The notes under the pieces: generated by a model
What the model was told of the DNA's origin: nothing
What the model saw: only the letters and a program-made list of their open reading frames with translations
Databases searched by the model: none
Program-made: the position numbers and the translations under genes
Part shown: piece after piece, positions 31,681-61,349 of the stretch
How positions within the stretch are numbered: position 1 is the first letter of the stretch
How the letters are laid out: the number at the start of each line of letters is the position of its first letter
Source: Chelativorans sp. YIM 93263
GTDB lineage: Bacteria; Pseudomonadota; Alphaproteobacteria; Rhizobiales; Rhizobiaceae
Assembly (NCBI RefSeq): GCF_028767125.1
Contig: NZ_JAKCWP010000009.1
Coordinates: forward strand, 98,242 to 162,241
Direction: 5' to 3'
DNA: 64,000 bases

Positions 31681-33538
31681 TCACCGGTCGTGAGTGATTC
31701 GAATTAGCGTATTTTCGGCTGCATACCTGAAATAGAACCGGGCACCAATGATTACTGGATCGAAAGCTGGCTTGATTTCGACCGATTCCAGACGTGCTTT
31801 CATCCGCATGAAATGCTCCCCGCGCTCTTTGGCGAGATTCATAAGGGAGACATAGGATCGTTGGAACCGAGCCAAGTCCTCTGGCATGACGATCGTTTGC
31901 GGGCACCGATTGATCGGGTTCACCGCAGTGCGTGCGGGGAGATACCCGTGTTCGATCAAAGCTTTCACGACCTGCGTCTTCGTTCCCAATTGGTGCTCAA
32001 CTTCTCGAAGCGACAATCCGCCGTGGTCCTCGAGCATCGTTTTTTCGCGAAGCTCATCGGGGTCCACAAGCACCGCCATGTAGCCACGCTCGTTGGCATC
32101 ACGGAAAGCACGCTCCAGCTTACCCGCCAGCAATAAATCCAGGATCTCGACCGCTTTGCAGTTCGCCTTCCGAACGGCCTGAGGGACGCTGCACAACCCG
32201 TGTTCCTGGTCCGTCAACAGCTTCGTGTTCGCCAGCAGTCGGTCAAGAAACACGCTGATATCTTCGCGACGAAACCGGAACTGGAGACCATGTTCGGCTC
32301 CCGCCTTGACATGAGGAGCAAGGTAACCCCGGTCGACCAGGATACCCCAGTGAACCCGTGGTGCATTTACGAGTTTTCTGCGCCTCCTTCGCGGACACGG
32401 TGTCCTTGACCTCCGCAACAAATTCCGCGATCTCCTCAGCATCGAGCATGATGCGGGCATTGGCCAGCGTCGCAGTATCCTTGGAGAGGACATCCGCTTC
32501 GATGAGAAGCTTTCGCAGGCGCTTTGGGTGCACACCGAATTCCTTGGAGGCCGACTGCACCGAATGCCAGCGTCGATCTGTGATCGGGCCGAAGAGGTCA
32601 TCACCCGGGCCGAGAGGAAGGGTGTCAATCGCGTGCTCGCGGATCAGCTTTCGAACCGGGTCGTAAGCGGGGTCGTCGGAATCGTGTGCGAGCGTCTCGT
32701 ACAGACGACCGTAGAGCGCCCGTCCACCAACATCTCCGGTCTTGCCCCCGAAAGCGGCCTGCTTCTCCGACAGCCAGCTACGGATTCCATCCTCACCACA
32801 GGAGGTGATGGAAAAGCCGGCTGCCCCCGCCTGCCACCAATCGTCCCCGCTGAAGCTGCGGATCGGAGCCTTGAGGCCGCGCGTCACCACGGCACCCAAT
32901 AGCTCGGTGAACCTTGCGGCGACATAGAAGGGCAGGGCGTCGAGGAAGGGAGCGGCACCGACGTGTCCGTTAATCCGGTCGAGGAGATAATGTTCGAAAG
33001 CCGAAGGCTCGCGCACAACCGAACGCTTAGCCGCTTCCGGGATTTCCCAGCGGTCCACTTGCACCATCGCAGCAAAATCATGGATCATCGAAGGCTCCTG
33101 CTGCACGGAGCACTCGACAAGCGACACGTTGTGGACGTTACATGTCCGGATGAACGAGATCAGCCATTTCCTGCGGCCCCATGCCCGTGCCAGGGGGTGC
33201 TCATCCTGGCGGCGCATGTCTTCAGCCAGGCATTCGGGACAGAAACGCAGGCGGTTGCGGATCATCAGGTTCCGCGTCATCCGCTGGCCGTCGACTTGGT
33301 ACCCGTCCGCCGTTTTCAGGATCGCGCTGTCTCTGAGAGAACTCACGTCGATGTCTGCCAGATATGCAAGTCTCGAGAGGGCAGCGTCACGGCCATCCAC
33401 CACGTCCTGAAAGTTGAAGCCCAGATCGGCGCAGAAGTGGCGTGCTTCCAGGCGGCCGTTCATGGCCGCCAGTCTGGAGCAGAAGCTTGCCGGGGTTTCG
33501 CCGGAATGAAGACGGGTTCTGATAGTTAACTGGGTCAT
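31681..33538 (-). pseudogene. tniQ: TniQ/TnsD-family target selector, one-base frameshift
   Basis: Reading from the ATG at 33538 (GAGGAG 7 bases upstream) gives a TniQ N-terminal domain: ETPASFCSRLAAMNG, and a zinc-finger region RFCPECLAEDM with TCNVHNVSLVEC. After about 388 codons the frame is lost at a TTTT run on the plus strand (32374-32377, AAAA in the gene); skipping one A joins VSAKEAQK to LVNAPRVHWGILVDRGY and keeps a further 230 residues open, with helix-turn-helix-like segments that would bind the target site. Joined length is about 618 residues, typical of TnsD-like proteins. It could be a true mutation, slippage expression or a sequencing error. Confidence 0.88.
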
Positions 33539-33548
33539 GTCCGTCTCC

Positions 33549-34619
33549 TCAAACCTTTCGGCGGCGTTTCGGGGCAGGGGAGACCTCTTCGGCTGGACGA
33601 TCTCGGACAAGAGCAGCCGAAGGCTGAAGCATTTGCCAGTCGGCGCGAAGAAATACGTTCTCGTCCTCAGTACAACCGGAGAAGCGGCTGTAAGCCGCCG
33701 CGAAATGTCTCGCCTTCACCTGTCCGCCTGCAGCTTCATCGAACATCGCTTGCTCGATCGCGCCGCGGACGAGTTGAATTACAACGCCGAAGCGGCCGTA
33801 GGCGGCGTGGAGCAGGCGGTGGATGAACTCGTCTGGCAGGGCCGAGGCGAGCTGCATTTCGGCGTGCTTTGTCACCATGTGTTCGATCATCTTTCGTACG
33901 GAGACGGCGTCTTTCGCAAATTCCAGGTTGCTGAACTCGAAGATGCGGGATCTGCGCATCAGCTGCACATCGGATGAGACCAGGCGCGCGAGTGTCGGAA
34001 TACCAGACAGGATGAAACACACAGGCCAGTCCGGCTGTTGCATGACGTTCTTGATTGTATCCGACAGCTTTTGCCGTTCGGTGTCGTTCAGCGTGTTCAC
34101 GGCATGCTGCATCTCATCGATGTGAATGAACATCACCTTGCGAATCCGGATCTGCTGACGGACGAGCTCCCACACCATGTGTTCTTTGATTTCTCGGGAG
34201 AGGGGATATCCCAACGCCCTAAGTACTTCCCGCCCCAATTGCTTCAGCGTGCAAGGGGAGGGGGCCACGACGCTGATCAGGGGAGATGTCGAGATGCCAT
34301 AACGGTCCTGGTAGGGCTGAAATTCGGCTCTTTTCGCGATGATGCGTTTGAGAAGTGTCGTCTTCCCCGCCCCGGAATCTCCGATGACCACCAGCGCCGA
34401 CCCATCGCGGCGTACGCTGTCGTGCGAGCTGGCGGCATTCTGGATGAGCATCTCGATCTCAGTTGCAAGAGCCGCATCCGTTGGAGTGGAAACGTGCTTC
34501 GAGTGCAGCTTTGCAAGGCGTTCTGCCCGGTCACGTGTTTTGTCGGGCATTGCCGATCTCAGACGGGCGAGCGCCTCTGCGGCGTCTTCTGGAAAGTGGA
34601 TTTGTTCCAAAGTCTCCAT
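33549..34619 (-). CDS. tnsC: TnsC/TniB AAA+ transposition ATPase
   Basis: 356 residues. Walker A GDSGAGKTT at 80-88, Walker B MFIHIDEMQH near 168, and a sensor region CFILSGIPTLARLV. TnsC-type regulators form ATP-dependent filaments on target DNA and bridge TniQ to the TnsAB transposase. The C-terminal tail ends in a run of basic residues (PAPKRRRKV). Stop lies 10 bases before the tniQ start. Confidence 0.95.
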   Translation of the reverse strand: METLEQIHFPEDAAEALARLRSAMPDKTRDRAERLAKLHSKHVSTPTDAALATEIEMLIQNAASSHDSVRRDGSALVVIGDSGAGKTTLLKRIIAKRAEFQPYQDRYGISTSPLISVVAPSPCTLKQLGREVLRALGYPLSREIKEHMVWELVRQQIRIRKVMFIHIDEMQHAVNTLNDTERQKLSDTIKNVMQQPDWPVCFILSGIPTLARLVSSDVQLMRRSRIFEFSNLEFAKDAVSVRKMIEHMVTKHAEMQLASALPDEFIHRLLHAAYGRFGVVIQLVRGAIEQAMFDEAAGGQVKARHFAAAYSRFSGCTEDENVFLRADWQMLQPSAALVRDRPAEEVSPAPKRRRKV

Positions 34620-34640: not shown

Positions 34641-36896
34641 TCAGTCGTCGAACGACCAGTCATCAGTGCGACCGGCTTTATCGGATCCGTCGTCATCATC
34701 GGCGTAGGGTTCGACGTCCATCGCGTAAGGGGACGGTTGCGGTTCCGGCATTACAGGGGTGGCGCGAACGTGATCGTCGTCGGGATTGAGGTCGTCGACC
34801 GGTGGGTCTTCCCACCATCTTTCCGGAAGGGTGATGATTTCGCCACCCGGGGGCGCATGGACCTCACCGTCATCCATGATCTCGAATGTACGGAAGTGGG
34901 TACGATCGACTTCACGGAAGTATTCCCTGTTCATCACTGGTGAGCCAAGTTCGGCGCGTTGGGCAGCCATTTCGCCGTAGGCCCGGCATTCGGAAATTGC
35001 CTCGGCGACTACTGCTTGGGAAACACGGGCATTATCGGCGTGGACACGGGAGAGATGTTGGACGGCGGCAATCCATTCCCACACGCTGACGCCCTGAAAT
35101 CCGTCGAATCGTGGCAGGGCCGCCGCCCATCCGCCGCGCTCCTCGTGCCAGAACGAGATCTCGCCGAGATCGAAACGGTTCACGCGGATGTGGATGGAGG
35201 GATTTGCCTTCGAGGCCCGGATCTTTTGGAGCAACGGCGACTGGTAATGGATCCCGAGGAAGCGGACACCTTTGCTGCCAATTCTGCACTCGCAGTGGAC
35301 CCCGAAGATGCTCCGACGCTGAAATGGAGCTGGCGGTGGAGTGACCGGATCCCGCTTTGTCATGCGGAGCCACGCGTTGCGGGGCGTTTCGCCGGCAAGG
35401 CCCGTATGCGGCGTATTGTGATAGGCATCCACAATGGCGCGGACGAGAAGGCGGTTCAGTTCCTCCACGGAGATGGACGCGTTGCCTTCCGAGTCATAGT
35501 TACCCCGGAGCACGACGTTCGCAAATGTCTGTCCAGTGTACCAAGCGAGGAACCGCTGTCGAATGGTCAGGAACATCCGCTCCACGGTTCCCCGCAGGTG
35601 TGGCTTCCCTGAAGGCGGGATAACAGCGTTGCCGGTCAGCGCCAGAACCGTCGCCTTGAAAGAGTTGGCCACATAGGCAGCGCCGGCGTCCGTATAGACG
35701 CATTCCGGCGTGCCATGCATTTCCCAAGGCGTTTGGGCTCCCACTGCGTCTGCGATGTACTGCTTGTCATGGACCGCCATCTCCAATGTAGCGATGGACG
35801 ACTCCGCCGACGGCGGCTTGTCGATAAACCGCATTGCCAGAATGCAACGCGTTGCAACGTCAATCGCGATCGACAGCCAGACTCGGGCGGGTTTGATCGC
35901 TTCTTTTTCTTTTTCGGAAAGAGTGTTCCAGATGCCGATATCCATAAGGATCGTCATCAACTCCACTTCGTACTCATCCATCTCCACGCGCTGCAGAGGA
36001 CGTTCGACGTCGATGCCTGTCTGGGTGATCTGGAGCTTCCTTGTCGCGTAGTCCGTGCCCATTCTTCCGGCCAACACGAAAAAGTGGTCGAGTTTGTCGA
36101 TCATGGTTTCGAAGGTGCGGCGGCTCGGCGAACGGAGAGGTTCCAGGCCTTTCAGCGCCCGTTCCTTGTTCAGCAAAAACAGCTCCGCATTCATGTCTCT
36201 GAACAAGGTGGCCTTCGATGGCTTGTTCGAGCTGGCGTACCCCGCCGCCCACTTGCGGTGGATTTCAGTTTCCTCGGCCGTGAAACGCGACGGGCGCGTG
36301 CCGGGATACCGGTAGCCGTCTCGGAGAGAACGGGCGTCAAACCCGGCTTGCTCGTATCTTTTCAACCAGCGACGGAATGTGCGCGGCGATACGGCAGCGC
36401 GCCGTACTTCTTTGGTTCCTCCGCGAGGTTTCCTGCCCTTTGCGCACGCCTCGGCGTCATCGAGTTCCGTTTGCCGTGCACGCATGTATTCGGCGAGGGA
36501 TTCATCCGAGCGGGAGTAACGGCCTTCGGCTTCGAGGCGGAAGAAGTCATGGATCAGAGAATGTCGCCAGAGGATAGTATCTTGGACCTTCTCGCTCAGA
36601 TCAGTAACCGGAAGTGCGCTGTGTTCGGCGCGAACATGCGCGTCAGACCCGCGAAACCAGTCCGTGTCGACGTTCAGTTCTCCATCGGCGATCTTGCGGT
36701 AGACGAGTTCATGCGAGAAGTGCTCGACCAGTTCCGGGTTGTCATGGCGGCGGAAGACATGCCCGCTGGAACTTTTTCGGTCATACATGTACGCCGTGTT
36801 TCCGATCTTGATACGATCGTGCCGCCCGAAACGGTAAAAGGGAACAACCGGAGCGTGCGATCCGATGGATGCAATGGTGTTTTCAGCGAAGCTCAT
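34641..36896 (-). CDS. tnsB: TnsB-type DDE transposase
   Basis: 751 residues. N-terminal DNA-binding region with helix-turn-helix motifs (SPRTFRRWLKRYEQAGFDA near 170-190), then the Mu/TnsB-type RNase H core: likely catalytic D307 (VEMDEYEVEL), D403 (VYTDAGAAYV) and E439 (RGTVERMF), all present, followed by the beta-barrel and a Pro/Asp-rich C-terminal tail that would contact TnsC. It cuts the 3' ends and joins them to target. It overlaps the tnsA stop by 4 bases. Confidence 0.96.
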   Translation of the reverse strand: MSFAENTIASIGSHAPVVPFYRFGRHDRIKIGNTAYMYDRKSSSGHVFRRHDNPELVEHFSHELVYRKIADGELNVDTDWFRGSDAHVRAEHSALPVTDLSEKVQDTILWRHSLIHDFFRLEAEGRYSRSDESLAEYMRARQTELDDAEACAKGRKPRGGTKEVRRAAVSPRTFRRWLKRYEQAGFDARSLRDGYRYPGTRPSRFTAEETEIHRKWAAGYASSNKPSKATLFRDMNAELFLLNKERALKGLEPLRSPSRRTFETMIDKLDHFFVLAGRMGTDYATRKLQITQTGIDVERPLQRVEMDEYEVELMTILMDIGIWNTLSEKEKEAIKPARVWLSIAIDVATRCILAMRFIDKPPSAESSIATLEMAVHDKQYIADAVGAQTPWEMHGTPECVYTDAGAAYVANSFKATVLALTGNAVIPPSGKPHLRGTVERMFLTIRQRFLAWYTGQTFANVVLRGNYDSEGNASISVEELNRLLVRAIVDAYHNTPHTGLAGETPRNAWLRMTKRDPVTPPPAPFQRRSIFGVHCECRIGSKGVRFLGIHYQSPLLQKIRASKANPSIHIRVNRFDLGEISFWHEERGGWAAALPRFDGFQGVSVWEWIAAVQHLSRVHADNARVSQAVVAEAISECRAYGEMAAQRAELGSPVMNREYFREVDRTHFRTFEIMDDGEVHAPPGGEIITLPERWWEDPPVDDLNPDDDHVRATPVMPEPQPSPYAMDVEPYADDDDGSDKAGRTDDWSFDD

Positions 36897-37603
36897 CTGA
36901 AATCTCCTTGTGCTGCGGCAAGCACGTCGTGGTTCACGCGCACGTACGTGTGGCCACCGATGCGCGTGTGCAGAGAATCGCGCGCGACCGGTTCGAGGAC
37001 GCCCTCATCGATCAGGCACCAGAACGCAGTCCTGGCGAGGCCGGGATCCAACGCTGCTTTCAGCAGGTCGTGGACACGGACCAAGCCCTCGATTGTGGAG
37101 GCGATGCGCAGAAGCCTGGCGCAATCCTCCTCGTTGCGCATCCGCCGTGCCCTGAGTACATTTTCAGCGTTGTACACGCGCGCCCGGCTAATCTGCCTCT
37201 CGGTGAGGATGACCGCCTTGTCCGCGATGCGAGCCAGGCTCTGCCGCCGGATCAGCTCAATCTCGACGTCAAGGCGTGTTCGTCTGACGCGCCAGAAAGG
37301 CTTTACGGCATAGGCTACCCGGCAGCCGTCGTCGAACACCGCGAGAAGGTCAAAGGTGTGTTTGCGTTTCACCCTCTCATGGTCGACGTACCAGACCGCT
37401 TTCGGCTGCTCCCAGAGTTCGCGGACGTCACGTCTGGCCAGCAAGACCGTCATCGCTTTGGCCTCAAGGAGGCTTTCTGCGATCATGCTGCGGTTCGACG
37501 CGGCGTTTGCGACGCTAGCGCGCGCAGACGCCTTCGTTTTCCAGTCGAAACGTCGGGAAGCGTTAGAGTCTCCGGGCGGCACCCAAACTTGGGTCATGCT
37601 CAA
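36893..37603 (-). CDS. tnsA: TnsA-type endonuclease
   Basis: 236 residues (M3 at 37597 has the better ribosome site, GAGGT). The restriction-enzyme-like fold shows likely catalytic E47 (SLLEAK), D85 (HTFDLL) and K101 (YAVKP), and the motif RELWEQPKAVWY common to TnsA. It cuts the 5' ends of the element so that transposition is cut-and-paste. The C-terminal part carries a winged-helix-like segment for TnsB contact. First gene of the module. Confidence 0.9.
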   Translation of the reverse strand: MSMTQVWVPPGDSNASRRFDWKTKASARASVANAASNRSMIAESLLEAKAMTVLLARRDVRELWEQPKAVWYVDHERVKRKHTFDLLAVFDDGCRVAYAVKPFWRVRRTRLDVEIELIRRQSLARIADKAVILTERQISRARVYNAENVLRARRMRNEEDCARLLRIASTIEGLVRVHDLLKAALDPGLARTAFWCLIDEGVLEPVARDSLHTRIGGHTYVRVNHDVLAAAQGDFR

Positions 37604-38341: not shown

Positions 38342-38764
38342 TCAAACTCTTCCGGCCTCCTCATGGGTAGAGCCGATCCGTGCACCTTTTTCGTCTAGAC
38401 AATGAAAGCGACCAGTCAAACGGCCGAATATGATCAGAATACGTTTTACGAGGCGTGGAGACTCATTATCCGGCGCTACGGGATCTACAATCCATACACG
38501 CAGAGTGGAGTCGAGCTGTTGAGCGAGAGGATCCGGGTCGATAGCGTTTCCGAGTGACTTGCCAACTTTCTTGCCGTCCACGGTGACATAGCCATGCACG
38601 AGGATACGCGTTGGAAGCGGCAACCCAGCCGACAACAGGACGCCGATGGCGTGGAAGCGTAGAATGCCCTTTCCAATAACGTGCTCACGAAAGGAGGCGG
38701 TGAGCCAAAAACGAGAGAAGTTGTCGCCAACAGTCGCGAGAACGTGATGAGCGTCTACGGCCAA
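38342..38764 (-). pseudogene. Fragment of a methionyl-tRNA synthetase-like gene
   Basis: The middle of this 140-residue frame reads HVIGKGILRFHAI, LSAGLPLPTRILVHGYVTVDG and KKVGKSLGNAIDPDPLAQQL, which is the MetG core including the KMSKS loop region, here KVGKS. The catalytic HIGH half and the anticodon-binding domain are missing, and a stretch after RFHAI is deleted. It cannot charge tRNA as it stands; it looks like debris of an accessory MetG copy brought in with the island. Confidence 0.7.
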
Positions 38765-40589: not shown

Positions 40590-40931
40590 CTACTGGGCCC
40601 TGTCCGGCGGGACGCCTTGGGGCAAGCCGAGCCTGTAATACCTGGATAATGTCCTGGCATATCCGAGCGTCGGTGCGAAAGCGAAAATCGCGGTCGTGAT
40701 GCCGAGGTCGCCTTCTTCGATATGCGGGTGTCCCAGAACTCTTCCAGACAAACATACGGAAGGCCTCAATTTCAGGCTCCAGCCTTCGATCATCGGCGCA
40801 TTCGACAACGCCGCATCGTCGGGATGATTTCCATTGCGGATTTGCTCGAGATCGTTGGCGAGCCTGCGAAGTCGCTCGATTTCGAACTCCAGACCGGGAA
40901 CATGTGCCCGGTCGTCGGATACCATGATCAT
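40590..40931 (-). CDS. DUF6634-like small protein
   Basis: 113 residues, AAGGAG 6 bases before the ATG. The text LRRLANDLEQIRNGNHPDD, APMIEGWSLKLRPSVCLSG and the end ARTLSRYYRLG match my memory of the DUF6634 family of Rhizobiales, often carried on plasmids and islands. Function unknown. It is 180 bases downstream of the FtsH-like gene on the same strand. The stretch 40932-41111 holds nothing obvious. Confidence 0.7.
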   Translation of the reverse strand: MIMVSDDRAHVPGLEFEIERLRRLANDLEQIRNGNHPDDAALSNAPMIEGWSLKLRPSVCLSGRVLGHPHIEEGDLGITTAIFAFAPTLGYARTLSRYYRLGLPQGVPPDRAQ

Positions 40932-41111: not shown

Positions 41112-43043
41112 CTAAGCCATCTTCTTTTCAGCGCCGGGCATGCGTCCCTGGAACGACTGCCGTGCGAAAATTTCTGCGACTTCGTCTCCGGATAGCTGCC
41201 GCCGTCGTAAGAGTTCTTCTGCGATCTTTTCGAGCACAGATCGGTGTTTGCCAACGATACCCTTGGCGCGTTTGAACTCTCTGGACAATACGTTGTCCAC
41301 CCGTCGCCGAAGGTCGGGAACTCTTCGGAGCTGAGCCGGCACGTCGTCCTCGGTCATTCCTACGAGATAGGTGAGATGCTCCCCCAAACCGAAGGAAGCT
41401 TCCATCAGCAACGCGTGGACCGTGGCTAGGTGGAGGTCAGCCCCCTCTCGGCCGCCTCCGCCTGCAGAGCGGGATCCTAGAATAACTTCCTCTGCGGCGA
41501 GTCCCCCGAGTTGCATGGCGATTTTGTTCAGGAGATTGGATTTTGTCATTTCCGGAAACGTACTTTCGCTGAAGCACATTCCACCCCCGGACTGCAGCGT
41601 GTCTCCCCCGAGTTCGAGCGATTTGGCAATGGAGACATGTTCAAGCTGGCCGATCTCCAGGACATGTCTGACGACTGCGTGCCCGGATTCGTGCACCGCG
41701 TATCTCCAGAGCAGTTTTTCAGGAAGAGCAAACCGCTTCGGCAGGCCTGCGACCAAGTCGGCGACCGTCATCGAGCGACGAGCACGGCGCGCGTAACGGC
41801 GTGCATCACGTGAGAGCTGTTCCAGTCGAGCTCCCGTCCAGCCTTCGGTTCGATCAACGACTTCGGACAGGTCGACACCGACAAGATTGTCTCTCAAGTG
41901 CCACCTCAGGATCCCGTCGCGAGCATCCCGATCGGGGAGGGGAATGCGGATATGCCGATCAAGTCTCCCCGGCCGGACCAAAGCCGCATCCAGCTTCTCC
42001 GGATAGTTCGTTGCTCCGATCACGACGACGCCTTCACGCCCACCCACGCCATCGAGGCACTCTAGAAGCCCATTGACGACTTCCGTGCTGTAGTGGGTGT
42101 TGTCGCCCGAAAAGCGGGCCCTGTCGCCCACGCTATCGATCTCGTCGATCAGAAGGATTGATGGGGCATTTTCCATCGCTTCCGCGAATGCCGCGCGCAT
42201 CGCTTTCAGTAGGTCACCTAAGTGACCCCGTGCTTGCCACTGTGCCACTGAGGCCGCTACCAAATGGACATCGCAGGTACGCGCCAGAGCTTGAGCATAT
42301 GTGGTTTTGCCACACCCCGGAGGACCGCTTACCAGAGCTCCACGATCTACGTCGTCCCAAGGAACATTGCCTGCTCGCCAATCGTCGAGGTCCGTAGCAA
42401 GCTCCTTTCCCCAATCGCTGGCTTCGCCCATGCCACACAGATCGTCCAACTTCGGCCCTGATACCAAGCTTCGCTTGGGACCGGCGACCCGCGTCATGGC
42501 CTCAATGGTTTTGGTGATGTTCCTTCCTTTCCGCCACGCAGCGGCGGCGATCCGGAGAGGGAACTCCGCGATCTGGGTAGCCTGTTCGCCTGTAAGTGTC
42601 TGGCCGAAGAAAAGCTTTGCCGCCGCTCGGACATGCCGCGTGTCCGGTTTCTGAATTTGGATGACGGCATCGGCAATGCCATCCACGCCGTCGGGGAGGG
42701 ACTCGCAGGAGTCCGCCAACAGGATGAGCTTCTCATGCCCGGCCACCGCCTCCAACAGATTGTAGCTTCGGTTGAATTTTCGTCGGGTGGCTTGAAACAC
42801 TTCGATCCATGCATCGTCGATCTTCGTCCGGCGGCTCGGTTGCCAGCCATGAAATGCGCGGTGGACGACCTCGTGGTAGAGATCGAAATCCTGCGAATTG
42901 GGGACAAGCAGCGCCAGGACCTGCGGCTCGCCATTACGAAAGATCTGCTCCTGCCGGACCGAATGGACGATTGAGCAAAAGGCCAGGAACTCGGCTGGTT
43001 TGCGCAGCTGTTTCGGTACTTTGGGTTTTCGCTTACGGCTCAT
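41112..43043 (-). CDS. Soluble FtsH-like AAA+ zinc peptidase
   Basis: 643 residues. The N-terminal 230 residues are unrecognised and have no transmembrane helix, unlike true FtsH. Then an AAA+ module: Walker A GPPGCGKTT near 240, Walker B ILLIDEIDS near 295, second-region-of-homology Arg residues in ALVRPGRLDRHIRI. The C-terminal M41 peptidase domain has the zinc motif HESGH near 451 and the third-ligand Asp in GREGADLHLAT, so both ATPase and protease sites look intact. It would unfold and degrade cytoplasmic proteins. Its upstream partner, 64 bases away, is a TnsA-like nuclease behind a LexA box. Confidence 0.9.
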   Translation of the reverse strand: MSRKRKPKVPKQLRKPAEFLAFCSIVHSVRQEQIFRNGEPQVLALLVPNSQDFDLYHEVVHRAFHGWQPSRRTKIDDAWIEVFQATRRKFNRSYNLLEAVAGHEKLILLADSCESLPDGVDGIADAVIQIQKPDTRHVRAAAKLFFGQTLTGEQATQIAEFPLRIAAAAWRKGRNITKTIEAMTRVAGPKRSLVSGPKLDDLCGMGEASDWGKELATDLDDWRAGNVPWDDVDRGALVSGPPGCGKTTYAQALARTCDVHLVAASVAQWQARGHLGDLLKAMRAAFAEAMENAPSILLIDEIDSVGDRARFSGDNTHYSTEVVNGLLECLDGVGGREGVVVIGATNYPEKLDAALVRPGRLDRHIRIPLPDRDARDGILRWHLRDNLVGVDLSEVVDRTEGWTGARLEQLSRDARRYARRARRSMTVADLVAGLPKRFALPEKLLWRYAVHESGHAVVRHVLEIGQLEHVSIAKSLELGGDTLQSGGGMCFSESTFPEMTKSNLLNKIAMQLGGLAAEEVILGSRSAGGGGREGADLHLATVHALLMEASFGLGEHLTYLVGMTEDDVPAQLRRVPDLRRRVDNVLSREFKRAKGIVGKHRSVLEKIAEELLRRRQLSGDEVAEIFARQSFQGRMPGAEKKMA

Positions 43044-43107
43044 TGGAGTGACTCCGGATACGCCCGGGACAAGGTCCGGTTCATCAAGTTTCGGGGAAAG
43101 GACGTTG

Positions 43108-43746
43108 TCAGTCGCGCCAGCGTCTGACGGAGGTTTCCGGTCCGATCAACGCTTCATCGAGATCGACTTCGACAAAGCGGTTCAGGATCAGCGAGGAGAG
43201 ACCTGCTATCGGCCGCGTCTCCTGGAACGCCGGAAGGCAATCGGCCACCGACAGTGCTCCGTGTTCGCCCAGCGCCGCCAGAAGACGGCTGCGGTCTCCA
43301 AGAGCGCAGTGCCACCGGGAATCTCGAAGCAGGTCTATGGCGTTCCGCAGCCGGTAGCCGCTGCTGACTTCCTCAGCGCACAAGGAGGCATATCGATATC
43401 CTCGGGACGTGACCTCATGGGCGATCCATGAGGGTGGAGTTCGATCCTTCGCCTGTTTGACATCCATGATGACCAGTTCACCGTCCTTTTCGACCAGGAA
43501 GTCTGGGATGTGAACGTCGGTGCCATTTTCCAGCACCAAAGGCAGACAGGTCCATGAGATCACCTCCCGGTCGACATCCAGCAGGCAACCGAGGTTCCGG
43601 GCTGATTGGTTCCGGAACAAAGGATGATCGAGGCATCGGACCGTGCCGTAGGGATGAAACGAATGTTGAGTTGCTTCGGCCCGGATGGAGGCAAGAAGAG
43701 TCTGATCGGCGGTGGGGAGAGTGGTCACAGGACACTCCATACGCAA
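43108..43746 (-). CDS. TnsA-like endonuclease-fold protein
   Basis: 212 residues (M3 is an alternative start). Residues 40-100 match the TnsA N-terminal nuclease fold: LLDVDREVISWTCLPLVL, then IPDFLVEKDGELVIMDVKQA-type strand pair with D82 and D95-x-K97. The Glu expected in the first helix (SxxLE) is replaced (QSARNLG), so cleavage may be weakened or use another residue. It differs from the true tnsA at 36.9-37.6 kb and lies outside that operon. It precedes the FtsH-like gene and has an SOS box upstream. Confidence 0.75.
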   Translation of the reverse strand: MRMECPVTTLPTADQTLLASIRAEATQHSFHPYGTVRCLDHPLFRNQSARNLGCLLDVDREVISWTCLPLVLENGTDVHIPDFLVEKDGELVIMDVKQAKDRTPPSWIAHEVTSRGYRYASLCAEEVSSGYRLRNAIDLLRDSRWHCALGDRSRLLAALGEHGALSVADCLPAFQETRPIAGLSSLILNRFVEVDLDEALIGPETSVRRWRD

Positions 43747-43832
43747 AACACAAGCATGAGACGCCGCCAGTCAGCGGTGTCGGCACCTGGTCAAACGTAT
43801 GAGGCGTATGAGCATCCTGTTCATAATGACAA

Positions 43833-43847
43833 GAACAAATAGAGAAC
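43833..43847 (-). promoter_or_regulatory. LexA (SOS) box, GTTC-N7-GTTC
   Basis: Read on the minus strand the 15 bases are GTTC-TCTATTT-GTTC, a perfect match to the alphaproteobacterial LexA direct repeat. It lies 87 bases upstream of the TnsA-like start at 43746 and points toward it, so the TnsA-like/FtsH-like pair should be repressed by LexA and induced by DNA damage. Confidence 0.85.
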
Positions 43848-43860
43848 AATTTTCGGGCTG

Positions 43861-44424
43861 TCAACCCGAACCAGGGCCCATTTGAAAACCGGCGGGAAGA
43901 TGCCCGGTTTCGGGGAGGGTGATAGTTTTCTCGATGCGCTTTTGCTGTCGGGGTGGAATCAACCATCGGTTCTGCTGTGGGTTGAACAGGCCCGGCAACG
44001 TGAAATACCGATGAATGCGCAAAAAGTCCTTTGTATTCATCGTTGCGACAGGGGCGTCTTTGACAATGGCCGTAGCGGCGATCGCGAGATCCTGCCCAAG
44101 CTTCAACCGCTTCGCATTCAAGGCGGGTACGCAAAGATGTCGCAAGGCTGGAACGCAAGTCATTCGGGCATAAAGGCGGGCTATTCTCGCGTCCATTTCA
44201 AGGAACGGAATATCCGACGCAAGGATGTCATCGAGCCATGAGGACAATTCTGATGCCTTTTCGGGATTCGCATCTTCCAGCATGGTGATTCCCCGCTGTA
44301 TTTCGAATACAGCGGAAAACGGAAGGGATATTGCTCTCCCTTGATAGTCAATCCAGCGCACGAGATTAAGGTCAGGATATTTCTGCTTCAGATTGCTGAG
44401 GACGCATGTGTCTAGAATGAACAT
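43861..44424 (-). CDS. PIN-domain toxin, VapC/FitB-like
   Basis: 187 residues. PIN fold with the acidic metal-binding set: D5 (FILDTCVLS), E41 (VFEIQRG), an Asp in LGQDLAIAATAI and one in NTKDF. FitB-like proteins are Mg-dependent ribonucleases kept in check by a small antitoxin normally encoded just upstream. The C-terminus is about 40 residues longer than usual. No antitoxin gene is recognisable directly upstream; a Phd-like gene lies 530 bases away on the other strand. Confidence 0.88.
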   Translation of the reverse strand: MFILDTCVLSNLKQKYPDLNLVRWIDYQGRAISLPFSAVFEIQRGITMLEDANPEKASELSSWLDDILASDIPFLEMDARIARLYARMTCVPALRHLCVPALNAKRLKLGQDLAIAATAIVKDAPVATMNTKDFLRIHRYFTLPGLFNPQQNRWLIPPRQQKRIEKTITLPETGHLPAGFQMGPGSG

Positions 44425-45321: not shown

Positions 45322-46980
45322 CTATGTCTCCGGAAGCTGAGACTGACGCAGAAACGTTTTCGGCAACGGCTTTTCATCTTCCTGCAGGCTTTCGACCATC
45401 TGCTCGTATTCGACATTCGGGTCCAGCATCGCCGCAAAAGCACCACGAGCGTACATCATATCGTCGTCAGGAAAGAGTTCGGCGCGCACGTAAGTTTGAA
45501 ACAGCTCGAACTCTGCGAGGTTCACCAGTGCCCTGCGTAGTTGTGACCTCCTTACGGTGGACATCTTATTTGCCGCTGTTGCCGGCAGAGATTTAAGGGC
45601 CCTCAGCTCTTCTTCTGCGCTTCCGAGTTTCCGCACGTGCAAAAGCTTTTTGGCGGCGCGGAGGTCCGACAGTTCCTGACTGATGTCTTTGCCCCGCAAT
45701 CCCTTGGCAGTTTTAAGCCAACGTTTGTACCTTTTGAGTTCGACAGCTTTCATCCTCCATTCGGCTTTCGCAATCGCGTTGGGTTCGATTGGATTGGCCG
45801 GAACCTTTCTTCTGGCATGATCGACAATCGCGCGTCCTATCGCTTGGGCCAGCGGTGGAGGAACGGAATTCGCCAGCATCTGCTGCCGGCTGCGCGCGAC
45901 TGGAGCAAGCTCGGTTTCGGACAAGCTCCCGTCTTCTGGCGAAGGGAGCTTCCAATCCCACCACTCAGGGTATCCTGCGAGGCGCGAGAACTGATGAAAC
46001 GTAAGCTGCTGTAGCTTCCTGAGGTCGACAGGATCACCGATGGTAGGCCGATAGTACTTCGACAGCCGGTCAGTCGATGTACGGATAAGGGTAGGGGAGG
46101 GCCTGTCGGTTCTCTGAATCGCTCCTGAGGCCGCGCCTCCGGGTGAACGGTAGTAAAAGCGTGTGTTGGGGTCTCGCTCTGATAAGCATTTCAGATCGCG
46201 CTTGCGCAACCGATAGCTCCCATATTCGGGACTATCCTTTGACACCAGGTCTGGGCATTCTGCGTCCAGGGAAAAATCTTCAAATTGGGTACCAAACTCG
46301 TTGCCCAACAGATCCGCGACGGACATGCGTTCACGAGATTTGTACTGGTTCAAGTAAGCGTGGAGCCACCCGTCTGTCTCTTCTAGGCACCCGGCCAAGA
46401 TAAGACGCTCTCGGTTCTGTGGCGTGCCGAAATACGAAGCGTTCAATACAGTTTCAGTAAGACCGTACCCGCCAAGTTCGAAAATGGCACGTGCTCGCCA
46501 GTAGACCTCGGAGTTACGAAGTCCCTTTACGTTCTCCATGACAAAGTATCTCGGGCGTGCAGCGGCCACGAGAATAGCGAATGCTTCCGTCAAGCTCGAA
46601 AGCGGACTCTCATCACCTTCTCCCTTGCCTGCCGCCGAAAACGGTTGGCAAGGCGGACCGCCGAATATGATATCCGGACGGTCCAATGCGATTTCCGGAG
46701 CTGTGTCGATCACCGCCAGCAGATCGGCCACATGATGTGGAAGATGACTTTTATGTATGCGACCGCGTTGCGACTTTCTTCCAGCCTCTGCGGCCGACTG
46801 CTCCACCGGCGGGCGAAACATTTGTATCGGGTTCTTCACGTCCTTTATGTTTGCCCGGTGGATGTCGATAACCGCTGGGTCGTGATCCAGGGAACGGATG
46901 ATCTTCACGCCTGCAGATTGCATGCCATAGGCGAATCCGCCTGAGCCGCAGAAAAGGTCGATTCCTCTCAATGCCAGCAT
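45322..46980 (-). CDS. C5-cytosine DNA methyltransferase
   Basis: 552 residues. All key motifs are visible: motif I IDLFCGSGGFAYGM, motif IV GGPPCQPFSAAGKGEG with catalytic Cys111, motif VI FVMENVKGL, the QNRERLILAG motif and motif X NSVPPPLAQAIGRAI. A C-terminal extension of about 160 helical, charged residues follows motif X and is unusual for a plain Dcm; it might contact a partner. No restriction endonuclease or Vsr gene adjoins, so it acts alone or protects the island. Confidence 0.96.
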   Translation of the reverse strand: MLALRGIDLFCGSGGFAYGMQSAGVKIIRSLDHDPAVIDIHRANIKDVKNPIQMFRPPVEQSAAEAGRKSQRGRIHKSHLPHHVADLLAVIDTAPEIALDRPDIIFGGPPCQPFSAAGKGEGDESPLSSLTEAFAILVAAARPRYFVMENVKGLRNSEVYWRARAIFELGGYGLTETVLNASYFGTPQNRERLILAGCLEETDGWLHAYLNQYKSRERMSVADLLGNEFGTQFEDFSLDAECPDLVSKDSPEYGSYRLRKRDLKCLSERDPNTRFYYRSPGGAASGAIQRTDRPSPTLIRTSTDRLSKYYRPTIGDPVDLRKLQQLTFHQFSRLAGYPEWWDWKLPSPEDGSLSETELAPVARSRQQMLANSVPPPLAQAIGRAIVDHARRKVPANPIEPNAIAKAEWRMKAVELKRYKRWLKTAKGLRGKDISQELSDLRAAKKLLHVRKLGSAEEELRALKSLPATAANKMSTVRRSQLRRALVNLAEFELFQTYVRAELFPDDDMMYARGAFAAMLDPNVEYEQMVESLQEDEKPLPKTFLRQSQLPET

Positions 46981-49785: not shown

Positions 49786-50092
49786 CCTCCCCCTGAGGGC
49801 TCAGCAGGACGTATATAAATGAAATACAGTTCTTATAACACGGCGAAAGGTCTGATTCAGATCTGGACTTTGGTCCAGACAGCATCCCCGGCTAAGGACC
49901 AGGAGCCACCCTGAACCATGGCCCGGAGACGTTCATTCGTCCGTGCCCTCATTTCGTTACACTAACGGGCATTACGGACCCGCCCTGCTTTTTGCATCAT
50001 TTCACCGAGTTTGCGCCGCTACCTCCGAATACCGGGTCGCGACGATGGATCTGCCCTAAAAAATGGGGCGCGAAAGAAGTGGGGAAAGCACC
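49786..50092. promoter_or_regulatory. Divergent control region of kinase and RTX operon, with a dyad
   Basis: About 300 bases between two divergent starts. At 49862-49879 lies a perfect dyad, TCTGGAC-TTTG-GTCCAGA, a good candidate operator for the neighbouring NarL-type regulator. An AT-rich block (49811-49845) next to the kinase start could hold its -10 element. The remainder shows no clear sites. Confidence 0.5.
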
Positions 50093-53000
50093 ATGGTAAA
50101 GCTGGTCAAACACGACCTGGAATTCATTCTGAAACAGGTCAAAATCGCAGAACAGCACTCAGCGGGGACGCCGCTTGATGAACTGGTGGACAGTGCACTG
50201 CTTCCCTACGGTCTCCGCACGGTCGACGGAAGCTATAATAATTTCGGAATCGGGCGCGAGCAGTGGGGCGCGTCGGGCGAGCAGTTCAAACCAATCGTTG
50301 ACCCGAACTACATCGAGGGAAGCGGATCACTGCCTCCGGGCTACCCCACCAACAATGACTACGGGCAGCCGAATGACGTTGTAGACGCAGAACCACGCCT
50401 GATCTCCAATCTCGTAGTGGACCAAACCTTGGGCAATCCAGCGGTCATTTACGCCGCGCTGCAACATGGGGGGGTGGCTACCAGCAGCGAGATCATGAAC
50501 GCCCTCGGCCAAATCCGCGATGCCCATACCCTCGTGGAGGGTACGGAAGAAGGCTCGCCCGCCAACGTGATCGCACAAGCGGATTTGGATAATCTCCTGG
50601 AGCAATACGGTATCGAAATGGACGGTCCCACCGTCATGCTCCCGAACGTAGCACCCGACGACGGGATTTCGGCCTCCTACAACTCCTTCTTCACGCTGTT
50701 TGGTCAATTCTTCGACCATGGGCTCGACCTTGTGGCCAAAGGCGGCAACGGTACCGTATATATGCCACTGTCACCGGATGATCCGCTCTACAACCCCGAC
50801 GCCCCGCACACCAACTTTATGGTGATGACGCGCGCGACGCCGGGTGATGAGGCGGCAAACGTCACAACGCCTTGGGTCGATCAGAACCAGACCTACACCT
50901 CGAAGCCCTCGCATCAGGTATTCTTGCGCGAATACCACGTGGTCGATGGCGTTCCTGTCGCGACAGGGCGTCTCCTCGACGGTGAGCGTGGCCTCGCCAC
51001 GTGGGCGGATGTGAAGGAACAGGCACGGACGCTGCTGGGAATCGAGCTTACAGATAAGGACGTCGGGAACGTGCCCGTCATTGCCGTCGACCCGTATGGC
51101 GAATTCATACGCGGTTCAAACGGCCTTCCTCAGCTTGTGGTTGGATTCGACGGCGACGGGCACCCTCTGCTGATGGAGGGCGACCTCGACAATCCTGTCG
51201 ATCCCTCAGCAGTAGGAGCCGCAAGAACCGGGAGCGCGTTCCTCGACGATATTGCGCATAACGCGGTACCAGTCACCAACACCGACGGCGAGCTTGTCCC
51301 GGATACTGACGGCACAATCGAATCCGTCATGGGCCAGAACACGGAGTACGATGCGGCCCTACTTGACGCGCATTACATCACTGGCGACGGGCGCGGCAAC
51401 GAGAACATAGGATTGTCAGCCGTCCATCACATTTTCCATTCGGAACATAACCGACTGGTTGATCATACGAAGCAGGTCGTGCTCGAATCCGGGGATCTGG
51501 AATTCCTCAACGAGTGGCTACTCGATCCAGTGGCGGACTTTCCGGCGACCGCGGCGGAAACCGAGGCTCTGGTGTGGGACGGTGAGCGCGTTTTCCAGGC
51601 GGCCCGCTTCGCAACGGAAATGCAGTATCAGCATCTGGTCTTTGAGGAATTTGCGCGCAAGGTACAGCCGGACGTGGACGTGTTCATTGTCCAGCCTGAC
51701 GCGGAACTTGATCCGACTATCTTCGCGGAATTCGCGAATGTTGTGTATCGCTTCGGACATTCAATGCTCAACGAGACCGTCGACCGTATAAATGCGGACG
51801 GCACCCGTGAGGATATTGATCTTTTCGACGCCTTCCTTAATCCGCTGGCGTTCGGGTCTGAGAGCGTCGACCATTACGAGGCAACTGGCGCGATCATCCG
51901 TGGAATGACCGGGCAGGTCGGTAACGAGATCGACGAATTCGTCACCAACACACTTCGTAACCAGCTTCTGGGAATCCCGCTCGATCTCGCGGCGATCAAC
52001 ATCGCCCGCGGCCGCGACACAGGTACACCGACGCTCAACGAGGCACGGGCAGCGTTCATGGAGATGGCTGGCGGCGACAGTCAGTTGAAGCCGTATGAAA
52101 GCTGGTCGGACTTTGGTCTCAACCTCAAGAATCCGCTGTCTCTCGTCAACTTCATCGCCGCTTACGGCACACATGCGTCCATTGCAGAAGCCTCCACAGC
52201 CGCGGCGAAGCGTGAAGCCGCCTGGGACTTGGTCATGGGTGCGGCAGGAGAAACCGCCTCGGAAAAGCAGGCACGTATTGACTGGCTCAATGCTTCAGCT
52301 TCCGAAACGGGTGTCGACGAAATCGACCTGTGGGTCGGCGGTCTTGCCGAGAAGAAGATGTCCTTCGGCGGCATGCTCGGGTCGACGTTCTCGTTCATCT
52401 TCGAGATGCAGATGGAAAGCCTGCAGGATTCCGACAGGTTCTATTATCTTTCCCGTGTCCAGGGCCTCAACCTGCTTACTGAGCTGGAGAACAACTCGCT
52501 GGCAAAGATGGCGCTGCGCAACACCGATCTTGGCGAGTCCGGCTTCGCTATCCCGGCCGACATCTTCGCCGCGGCGGACCACGCCTTGTATATGGATTAT
52601 GACAAGCAGCTTCAGCTGACGGGCGAGGAAGACCCCGTACATGATGATCCCGTGCTCGAGGGCTATTCAAGTCTCGTTGAGCGCCGCGATGCCGACGATG
52701 ACGGCATTGCTGAATACATCCGCTACAACGGAGCCGACCATATTGTCGTCCAGGGAACTGACAATGACGACACGATCGTAGCAGGCGATGGCGACGACAC
52801 CGTCTGGGGCGGCGACGGGGCTGACCGGATCGAGGCAGGGTACGGCGTGGATCTGATCAATGGCGGTGACGGCGACGACATCATCACAAATTCCGGAACC
52901 GACATCGGCGAAGTGGACATGCTCAAGGGGGACGCCGGGGATGACGTCATACATGGCGGCAGTGGACTTGCGCTCATTTTCGGCGGCGAAGGCAAGGACT

Positions 53001-56000
53001 TCCTGATGACCGGCCCGGATGGCTCGGAAGTGCGTGCCGGAACCGGAGACGATTTCGTGATGGGCGGCGACGGGCCGGACGTGCTCTTCGGCAACGAAGG
53101 TAATGACTGGGTCGAGGGTCACGGGCGTTTTGAATACATTGCAGGCGACAATGGTGAGCTGTTCTTCAACTCAACCATAATCGGCCATGACGTGATCAAT
53201 GGGGGGCAGGGCGATACCGACTACGATGCCGACTCGGGCGATGACATCATGGTCGCGGGCGAGGGCATTCAGAAGAACATCGGCATGTGGGGGCACGATT
53301 GGGTCATCTACAAGGGCCAGCAAGTCGCCGGCGATGCCGACATGAACTTCCCGATGTTCCCCAACTTGCCGCTGGAGGTGCTGCGCGACCGCTTCAGCCA
53401 AGTCGAGGCCTTATCCGGCTGGGAGAACGACGATGTGCTGCGCGGAGACGACCGCGTGTTTGACGACAGTTTCGAACTTGATCTCGAGATCGAAATCGAG
53501 GATGAGGAAGTAGAGGATCCCGAAGAGGAAGATCTCGACGGCGATGACGTGGATCCCGGCACTGACACGCCCGGAACTGTCACACCGCCCACGGAAACGG
53601 TGGAGGTTATTGAGAGGCCTGGGCCGGATTTCTACGATCCGACGCCGGAGGGCAATTTCGTCCATAATGAACTCGATGAGTCAGGCATCGCGCGCATCGC
53701 CGGACTCGATCAGATAGTCACGTCCGACATGCTACGCGAGGTCGACTACTGGGCCGATGGTTCAGGCGACAGCAAACTGGCTTTTGTTGGCGGCAACATA
53801 CTGCTCGGCGGCGGCGGCAGCGACTTCTTCGAGGGCCGCGGCGGTGACGACGTCATCGACGGGGATGCGTGGCTCAACGTCCGCATCTCCATACGGGATG
53901 CAAACGGCGTGGAGATCGCCACGGCCGAAGGCATGGATGCCGAAGTACGGGGAGCGGGCGGCCAACAGCTTCACGACGGAAAGCCGTTGACTGCATTGAT
54001 GCTCGAAAGGATCTACAATCCGGGCCAGCTCCACATCGTGCGAGAAATTCTTCACGACAGCCGCGGTACCGATACGGCCTACTACTGGGACGTACGCGAA
54101 AACTACTCTTTTAACGGCACCAGTGATGGACGGCTCGTTGTCGAGCATGTGGAGCAGACAGAGCAGGCATTCGATCCCATAACCGGGAAAAACCGGACGT
54201 CTGACGGCAGTGACATCTTGTCCAATATTGAGCAACTCGAATTCGGGGATGGTGTGGTCGATGTGACGACCGGGAGCGAAGCTGGCGAGACGCTCGAAGG
54301 GACGGGTAACGATGACATCATGCTCGGCATGGGCGGGGATGATGTCATCAACGGCCACGGCGGTGACGATGTCCTCATCGGTGGAAGCGGAGACGACACG
54401 ATGAACGGCGGAAACGGTGACGACCGCTTGGTCGGTGGTGCAGGTTCCGACACGATGAACGGCGGCGCTGGTGACGACACCTACATCTTCGGCACTGCAG
54501 ACGGATCGGATATCGTGGGCGAAGCACCGGATGGCGGCGTTGCAGATAGGATCGTCATTGAGGCGGACGGTGGGCAACTCGGCTCCCTCAATGCCTATGA
54601 TGACGATATCGGATCCGACAGCGGAGATTTGGTGGTCGAGATCGATGGGCAGCAGATAACCGTGGAAGGCCACTTCGAGGGGACCAATTCGGAAACTGGC
54701 ATCGAGCGCATTAACTTCAACGGCGCAACATTGGCTGGGTACGAACTCGGCAATGAAGATTATTTCGTCAGCAAGGCGGACCCGGGCGACAATGTTCGCA
54801 CTGGGTCCGGAGACAACGACTTCATCGTGGGCGAGAATGGTGTCATTGACAGGCTCGAAGGCGGCGAAGGGAGCGATATCCTGCTGGGGGGCAGCGGGGG
54901 CGACAGGCTTGACGGTGGAGCCGGAGCAGACCTGATGCTCGGAGGAACTGGGAGCGACACCTACGTCGTGAATGACGAAGGCGATGTTATCGCGGAAGCT
55001 CCCGGGGGTGGAACTGCCGATACAGTGCAAGCAAGCATCGACCATACGCTTGCCGATGAAGTGGAGAACTTGACGCTCGTCGGCAGCCTGCTATCGGGCA
55101 CAGGCAACGATCTCGACAACGTCATCACGGGTACGAATGCCGGAAATACACTGGACGGCGGAGCAGGTGATGACATTCTCGAAGGTCGAAATGGCAACGA
55201 CATCCTGATCGGCGGCGCTGGGAACGACGAGCTCAATGGTGGCAATGGGGTGGACACTGCCTTGTATGCCGGACCGGTCGGCAACTACGACTTTGGCCTC
55301 GACGGGAACAGTATCGTGGTGACCAACACGACCGGAGCTGAGGGCTTTGATATCTTGGATGCGGTCGAGCGGCTGGAGTTCGAAGGCCAAGTTTATACAA
55401 TCGTCAGCGGCACGGATGCGGGTGACGATGCGCTGAACGGGACCAATGGGGCCAACGGTGCGCAGGCAGTCCTCGGAATGGGCGGAGACGACACACTCAA
55501 TGGAGGGGGCGGCCCTGACCTCATCGTGGGCGGCGACGGAAATGACACCGTCAGCGGCGGAAACAGCAACGATACCGTTCTATGGAGCTCCCGTGACGGA
55601 CGCGACGTGATCGACGGCGGCAACGGCATCGACACAATCAATATTTCGGGCGATGCCTCTGCCGAAACGTATCACATCTGGACACGAGACGCCTGGATCG
55701 ACGAAGGCAATGACGGAAACCAGCTTTCGCTCGATACCGAGATTGTCGTTACCCGGAACGGGATCGACAATGCCGCCGTCATCGCGGAACTCGACAACGT
55801 CGAAGAGATCGTCATCAACGGAAAGGGAGGTGGGGACACCTTTGTACCGCACGGTGACTTCGCTCCCACGAGCCTCTCGACCAGCACCATCACGGTAGAA
55901 GGTTCCGGTGGCAACGATACAGTCGACATCACGTCTTTGCTTTCGGCACACCGCATCGTGTTCAAGTCGGGTGGAGGGTCCGACACGATCATTGGTGAAC

Positions 56001-57136: not shown

Positions 57137-57146
57137 CGCGACGATC

Positions 57147-57172
57147 CCGGGGCAGGCAAAGACCTGCCCCGG
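57147..57172 (+). terminator. Intercistronic hairpin after the peroxidase gene
   Basis: A perfect 10-bp GC-rich stem (57147-57156 with 57163-57172) with a 6-base loop, no T-run. It lies between the peroxidase and the exporter genes and could act as partial terminator or 3'-end stabiliser, setting more peroxidase than exporter mRNA. Confidence 0.6.
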
Positions 57173-57203
57173 CGTGACGGCAGCAATTCCGGGGGGACTG
57201 GCG

Positions 57204-61318: not shown

Positions 61319-61349
61319 GACATCGGCGCTTAAAGTACGGGGGTTGCGA

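Follow-up and report, generated by a model that had tools for sequence, protein, structure and literature searches.

A LexA-type box and a leader reading frame precede a TnsA-like gene and a soluble AAA+/M41 protease gene associated with Tn7-like transposons

A 64,000-nucleotide stretch of the genome of Chelativorans sp. YIM 93263 (contig NZ_JAKCWP010000009.1, positions 98,242 to 162,241; hereafter the window) carries a two-gene unit in which a gene for a TnsA-like protein is followed by a gene for a soluble protease with AAA and M41 domains, downstream of a LexA-type box and a short leader open reading frame (ORF). The original prediction, made from the letters of the window, had named the box, the TnsA-like ORF, the protease and a DUF6634 protein, and all are present on the minus strand. 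The reading tentatively favoured here, at somewhat less than an even chance, is that the pair is a transposon-borne, DNA-damage-induced accessory module in which a nuclease-dead TnsA hands transposase complexes over to an unfoldase/protease. Regulating or finishing transposition is the simplest role that accounts for all of the parts. Three features go beyond the original prediction: a sigma70-type promoter that overlaps the box, a leader ORF with a predicted hairpin covering the next ribosome-binding site, and a tie to one transposon family.

Conservation of the gene pair and its upstream region

When one genome was scanned for each species, the TnsA-like gene was found at 73 genome loci, a few of them near-identical to each other, under names mostly from Rhizobiaceae together with Microvirga (two) and Rhodopseudomonas (one). 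A protease match lies at most 3 kb downstream of the TnsA-like gene in 69 of these loci, seven of the matches being partial (L029, L033, L057, L061, L074, L080 and L082); of the other four loci, two are cut off by the end of a contig (L048 and L073), one is fragmentary (L093), and L063 has no protease match. This co-occurrence indicates that the two-gene unit proposed for the window is real. Distances among the proteases and among the TnsA-like proteins correlate (r 0.87), and, judged from these sequences, the two genes travel as a unit. The TnsA-like profile matched 57 of 394 genomes in the family sample and 3 of 16 genomes of the genus, and the single TnsA-like protein used as a query matched 6 of 199 in the order sample. 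The gene was also found by tblastn in 18 plasmid records. Seven plasmid loci were examined; the protease stands beside the TnsA-like gene in every one holding a full gene (L012–L017), and the seventh (L018) has a truncated TnsA-like gene without a box.

The exact motif GTTCN7GTTC, which is the one given for Caulobacter in part of PMC12700426, occurs four times in the window against 2.56 expected by chance, and the window box alone is therefore weak evidence; the case is made by conservation across loci. An exact box is found within 400 nt upstream, on the strand of the gene, in 67 of 73 loci, compared with 1 of 73 in the reversed control, and is missing in L030, L066, L077, L089 (contig edge), L090 and L093. 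The perfect LexA box of the original prediction is thus present and conserved. Of the 74 box loci, 65 have the sequence TTGAC starting 17 nt ahead of the box and, at 17-bp spacing from it, a TATxxG-like hexamer inside the box, so that the box overlaps the −10 element of a predicted sigma70-type promoter. The layout of box and promoter agrees with SOS control so far as sequence can tell; LexA would be expected to bind at the box, and the pair to be induced by DNA damage.

A short leader ORF follows the box in 70 of the 71 box loci examined, the near-duplicates L054, L072 and L073 having been left out of the leader counts. Its ATG mostly lies 3–8 nt after the box, its length is 11–13 codons in 60 of the 70, and its stop codon is TGA in 69. 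The codon AUA makes up 11.7% of leader codons (91/778) compared with 0.22% in the two core genes, and CGA makes up 9.8% compared with 1.4%. Folding was run locus by locus on the transcript between the leader ATG and the start selected for the TnsA-like gene, with 30 shuffles per locus. At least six leader base pairs with the 35 nt before that start were obtained in 67 of 69 loci (mean 16.8, against 7.5 in the shuffles), with the start codon picked by a Shine-Dalgarno rule that may itself favour pairing nearby. The window fold has a minimum free energy of −42.7 kcal/mol, and in it the leader pairs with GGAG and most of the GTG start through 27 leader-to-ribosome-binding-site pairs (12.3 in the shuffles). 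Cognate arms bind better than swapped arms (−16.7 versus −13.8 kcal/mol, P 4e-4, 34 representatives), an effect that is significant but moderate, the cognate arm ranking in the best 5% in 15 of 69 loci with a median rank of 0.20. RNAalifold applied to a MAFFT alignment of the leaders returned no pairs.

The leader and predicted hairpin look like a translational attenuator with a leader peptide, as in the erm/cat type, in having a short leader ORF and an RNA that would cover the next ribosome-binding site, and differ from the erm/cat type in the coupling to an SOS promoter and in a leader rich in AUA and CGA. Ribosomes may stall or pause on this leader.

Properties of the two proteins

The predicted structure of the TnsA-like protein has a mean predicted local distance difference test score (pLDDT) of 92.7, and the best Foldseek matches are 9bw1 (TnsABCD transpososome; E 9e-8, template modelling score 0.49) and 1t0f (TnsA complexed with TnsC; E 2e-5, score 0.47), which supports the TnsA-like fold originally assigned to it. 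In sequence searches the match to the TnsA-like model is 23.1 bits, far under the cut-off of 110, Pfam gave no family up to E 1, PADLOC gave none up to E 0.01, and a PDB sequence search with the profile gave three matches up to E 10, the best at 0.72. Aligned family starts indicate that the window gene probably begins at the GTG at 43728 and not at the TTG at 43746, the longer ORF being 43108–43746.

Residue counts are taken from alignments A5 (proteases of 580–720 codons) and A6 (TnsA-like proteins of 185–260 codons), restricted to proteins without internal stops; broken copies lie outside these counts, and L073, which runs off its contig, was dropped from A6. At the aligned position of the first acid most rows have no Glu, in line with the original prediction, and beyond that claim the catalytic Lys is also absent in 67 of 69 homologues, Lys97 being kept in the window protein and L026 only. 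Asp82 is kept in 67 of 69 and Asp95 in 65 of 69. An active nuclease as a rule of the family is rejected on the loss of the active-site Lys, and with only two of the 69 proteins having K97, the mutant once proposed at that residue would tell little. The TnsA-like protein therefore shares its predicted fold with the TnsA endonuclease but lacks the first Glu and the catalytic Lys, and most of its invariant positions are in the C-terminal half. The corresponding half of Tn7 TnsA contacts TnsC. Profile comparison gives a probability of 95.9% (E 6e-9) with the type-2 TnsA of the transposons described below and 85% (E 6e-6) with type 1, pointing to a closer link with type 2. Type-2 TnsA itself (L067 12250–13020 and six other loci, alignment A9) seemingly lacks the usual nuclease motif, with an IDYIP-like sequence at the place of acid-x-Lys.

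The protease matches Pfam AAA (E 3.9e-32) and M41 (E 2.6e-16), and its zinc-site and Walker residues are kept in all 61 aligned proteases. It resembles FtsH in these domains and in its intact catalytic residues, but has an N-domain of ~190 residues in place of the N-terminal membrane segment and scores 193.9 bits against the FtsH model TIGR01241, whose cut-off is 600. A separate FtsH-like frame of 688 aa is present in the same genome, and the enzyme can thus be set apart from housekeeping FtsH, as had been supposed. The absence of a membrane helix is likewise borne out for the window protein, in which the highest 19-residue Kyte-Doolittle mean is 1.09 and is located in the peptidase part; 22 of 61 family members reach a mean of 1.6 somewhere (five shown: residues 113, 429, 508, 510 and 517). 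The N-terminus had been called novel, and it may not be a novel fold: 5 of the 50 listed structural matches pair its ~190 residues with the D1 domain of ATPases that have two AAA domains (Rix7, NVL, p97, DRG1, Cdc48), which is no more than suggestive of a degenerate AAA domain. The absence of other folds is uninformative there, as the structure search barely tested the N-terminal part. PADLOC matches of the protease cover the AAA part only and include IetA models (best E 4.8e-23). The likeness to the IetAS defence system is thus one of AAA domains; the partner there, IetS, is a subtilase, whereas here the peptidase is fused and of family M41 and the partner is TnsA-like. A partial M41 peptidase frame elsewhere in the same genome (L003, C7:32953–33363) is 34% identical to the end of the protease and lies beside apparent transposase remains.

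Association with Tn7-like transposons

Clustering of neighbouring genes recovered clusters holding the TnsA, TnsB and TniB genes of the window and others read by sequence as type-2 TnsA, TnsC and TniQ. Of 81 loci, 27 have at least one such cluster in the neighbourhood of the pair, and 22 have TnsB there. At the genome level, a TnsB match up to E 1e-10 is present in 46 of 54 pair genomes, a set that excludes G023, G426 and G500 with their weak or partial pair matches. A strong TnsB match (360 bits or more) is found in 43 of 57 pair genomes and in 8 of 337 others, an odds ratio of 126 (P 6e-37) that is inflated to an unknown degree because pair loci supplied the seeds of the TnsB profile. Genomes lacking the pair often have shorter relatives scoring about 240 bits. 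Pair genomes contain 55 strong TnsB genes, of which 37 are on a contig with a pair, 35 are within 50 kb of it, and the pair is on the tnsA side in 33 of the 37 same-contig cases. In G345, G233 and G576 the TnsA-like gene, the protease gene, a gap of ~600 bp and frames read as tnsA, tnsB and tnsC follow one another on one strand.

Element ends were found through a repeated motif in G576 and L063. The G576 element of 26.5 kb holds both genes (−8848 to +17682 around the pair), with the target-site duplication (TSD) AAACT and inverted ends agreeing at 10 of 12 bases. The L063 element has the TSD CTCAC and contains the TnsA-like gene without the protease gene. Each element offered ~780 end combinations and three 5-bp matches, of which the one with agreeing inverted ends was kept (10/12 and 9/12). 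The homology edge between L069 and L075 was rejected as an element end, as it falls in a coding end, and flank searches within the genus yielded no empty site. In L150–L153 (G235:C4 and G345:C1) a left host flank is common to two elements, the distance from the end of the host block to the pair being 743 bp for one element and 7154 bp for the other. Ends of the TGT...CGCCAC type follow a tRNA(CAU) by a few bp in L036 (10953–11027), L052 (10942–11017), L063 (2760–2835) and L067 (3467–3542); in G576 a similar end is preceded instead by a tRNA 3' fragment (L162 near 5990), and the tRNA-bearing loci L055, L062, L155 and L164 are without this arrangement. The D and variable loops of this tRNA presumably mark it as akin to tRNA-Ile2. 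That tRNA reads AUA, the codon that fills the leader.

From these positions we infer that the pair lies within, and belongs to, Tn7-like elements (TnsABC and TniQ, including the CRISPR-associated transposases, CASTs), one of which is delimited by inverted ends, a repeated end motif and a 5-bp TSD. Compared with known members, the carrier elements have in addition a second, nuclease-dead TnsA, an AAA+/M41 protease and an SOS-type promoter. Protease and TnsB distances correlate overall (0.49, n=20) and within type 1 (0.69, n=14), and the unit seems to have been exchanged between transposon types.

In the window (Table 1), the nearby Tn7-like set comprises TniQ and TniB genes above the Pfam cut-off and TnsA and TnsB genes with weaker matches. 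The window and L026, also from Chelativorans, have in common a block of 3.66 kb with the PIN-domain gene and the pair at 90.5% identity between differing flanks. With 25 of 81 loci having a PIN gene close to the pair, this gene is accessory at most. A metallophosphoesterase gene is near the pair in 17 of 81 loci (L013 11573–12412, L016, L017, L028, L029 and others); in 15 of these it comes directly after the protease gene in the same orientation. At this frequency it was rejected as a third core gene and is considered accessory. The DUF6634 gene and the broken coiled-coil gene that follows were not recognised among the recurrent neighbour clusters, no search having been aimed at either, and Rfam gave nothing at gathering threshold over the window. 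Between the transposon genes and the pair lies a methionyl-tRNA synthetase-like fragment (38342–38764, Pfam E 1.4e-12). Beyond the pair are a C5-cytosine methyltransferase gene on the same strand (45322–46980), relatives of which neighbour the pair in 15 of 81 loci, and at 50063–62654 consecutive genes for a haem peroxidase with RTX repeats (2357 aa), an ABC transporter, a second RTX protein and an HlyD-like protein.

Table 1. Positions of the gene pair, its predicted control elements and neighbouring genes in the window.
Feature	Position	Strand	Remarks
−35 hexamer TTGACA	43859..43864	(-)	TTGAC at the same distance from the box in most box loci
LexA-type box GTTCTCTATTTGTTC	43833..43847	(-)	−10 hexamer TATTTG (43836-43841) inside the box
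Leader ORF, 17 codons, MNRMLIRLIRLTRCRHR	43771..43824	(-)	window copy longer than typical for the family
Predicted attenuator	43726..43824	(-)	leader RNA against GGAG and start of the TnsA-like gene, from folding
TnsA-like pseudo-nuclease, 206 aa from GTG	43108..43728	(-)	
Soluble AAA+/M41 protease, 643 aa	41112..43043	(-)	Walker A ~240-247, Walker B D300/E301, HESGH 451-455, Asp536
DUF6634 protein	40590-40931	(-)	Pfam E 5.8e-7
PIN-domain gene	43861..44424	(-)	in the block common to the window and L026
tnsA of the nearby Tn7-like transposon	36893..37603	(-)	NF033179 E 2.7e-5 (under cut-off); Pfam TnsA-N E 0.03
tnsB of the nearby transposon	34641..36896	(-)	family A7; weak helix-turn-helix/integrase-core Pfam matches
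tnsC/TniB-like AAA protein	33549..34619	(-)	Pfam TniB E 5.3e-16
tniQ	32243..33610	(-)	Pfam TniQ E 9.5e-22

Proposed function and alternatives

In the proposed sequence of events, DNA damage would cause LexA to leave the promoter whose −10 element sits in the box. Translation would still be held down by the AUA/CGA-rich leader ORF and the hairpin on the next ribosome-binding site, until ribosome pausing on the leader opens the hairpin. The nuclease-dead TnsA paralogue would then recognise transposon ends or TnsB/TnsC, and the cytosolic AAA+ metalloprotease would act on the transposase complex thus bound, unfolding or degrading it. This would either finish transposition, by clearing the complex left after strand transfer, or stop further rounds once the excision break has raised the SOS response, which follows excision in cut-and-paste transposition. 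Removal of a transposase complex by an AAA+ unfoldase has a parallel in ClpX, which acts on Mu transpososomes. For CASTs, the part of PMC12326709 consulted reports that ClpX raised PseCAST integration 4.0-fold on average and hypothesises that it removes the post-transposition complex. ClpX is host-encoded and not SOS-linked, whereas the present enzyme is element-encoded, has a TnsA-fold partner and would act in this way by analogy. Of the three functions offered in the original prediction, control of the nearby transposon fits best, given the TnsB association and the delimited element, and cell suicide and phage defence fit less well.

Several observations weigh against a role in transposition. 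The substrate is inferred, as are the direction of the effect, with transposition either helped or curbed, and the oligomeric state. Strong TnsB is absent from 14 of 57 pair genomes, and the TnsB profile was both seeded from pair loci and scored on only two candidates per genome. The mean distance within transposon types is 0.60 for the protease and 0.72 for TnsB, the protease hardly differs between types, and the protease-TnsB correlation within type 2 (0.20, n=6) is not significant. Protease relatives without a TnsA-like neighbour exist (L019 and L020), and the ends of the window's own element were sought and not found. A more specific version, rather unlikely as a whole, is that the transposon encodes an AND-gated remover in which LexA release gives the mRNA, leader pausing opens translation, and the dead TnsA passes the transposase-DNA complex of the element itself to a dedicated AAA+ protease; the element may in this way sense the state of its tRNA(CAU) landing site.

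The main rival is that the pair is defence cargo, a favoured passenger of Tn7-like elements whose TnsA-fold protein recognises complexes of phages, plasmids or rival transposons and whose SOS-induced protease attacks them or else kills the cell. This is a real possibility, if on the unlikely side. Tn7-like elements do carry defence genes (PMC8649781). Annotated defence genes lie near two plasmid loci (KwaB-like in L016 and CBASS in L017), the PIN and C5-methyltransferase genes recur near the pair as given above, and both the exchange of the module between transposon types and its loose fit with TnsB speak for cargo. The strong tie to one transposon family and the homology of the partner to TnsA argue the other way, as do the lack of a PADLOC match for the TnsA-like protein and the restriction of the protease matches to the AAA part. 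Among viral contigs, 33 pattern-matching stretches included none encoding a relative, a result of no weight for or against defence.

Alternatively, the protease might destroy a transposition repressor, or the pair might form an alternative target selector, so that damage turns transposition on. Other mobile elements respond to SOS, as described in part of PMC12452197, and the single-strand order of pair, tnsA, tnsB and tnsC in G345, G233 and G576 would suit such mobilisation. Nevertheless it is improbable, as the gap of ~600 bp separates protease and tnsA in those genomes, the pair points away from tnsABC in others, and the candidate repressor is only hypothetical. A repair role of the host type, for example the clearing of DNA-protein crosslinks that damage leaves, with the metallophosphoesterase as an occasional third subunit, accords with SOS control and with the position of that gene where it occurs, but is highly improbable since the gene is absent from most loci and the links to the transposon and to TnsA stay unexplained.

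Searches of the open-access literature for Tn7-like elements with FtsH, Tn7-like elements with LexA, and TnsA with metalloproteases turned up no paper that describes the pair by title or beginning of the abstract. In the portions consulted, the Tn7 survey PMC8649781 mentions neither protease, FtsH, SOS nor LexA, and the survey PMC10293859 has the word protease in its methods only.

Removal of the post-transposition complex matters for CASTs: host ClpX helps CAST integration yet is toxic in human cells, as stated in part of PMC12326709. If the favoured reading is true, a transposon with its own unfoldase/protease and a TnsA-like adaptor would offer a solution found in nature and a possible engineering part. 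SOS control of a Tn7-like element would also set it apart from the Shewanella CAST, for which part of PMC12452197 reports no response to mitomycin and agreement with earlier Tn7 findings. The leader switch would then tie the activity of the element to both DNA damage and translation.

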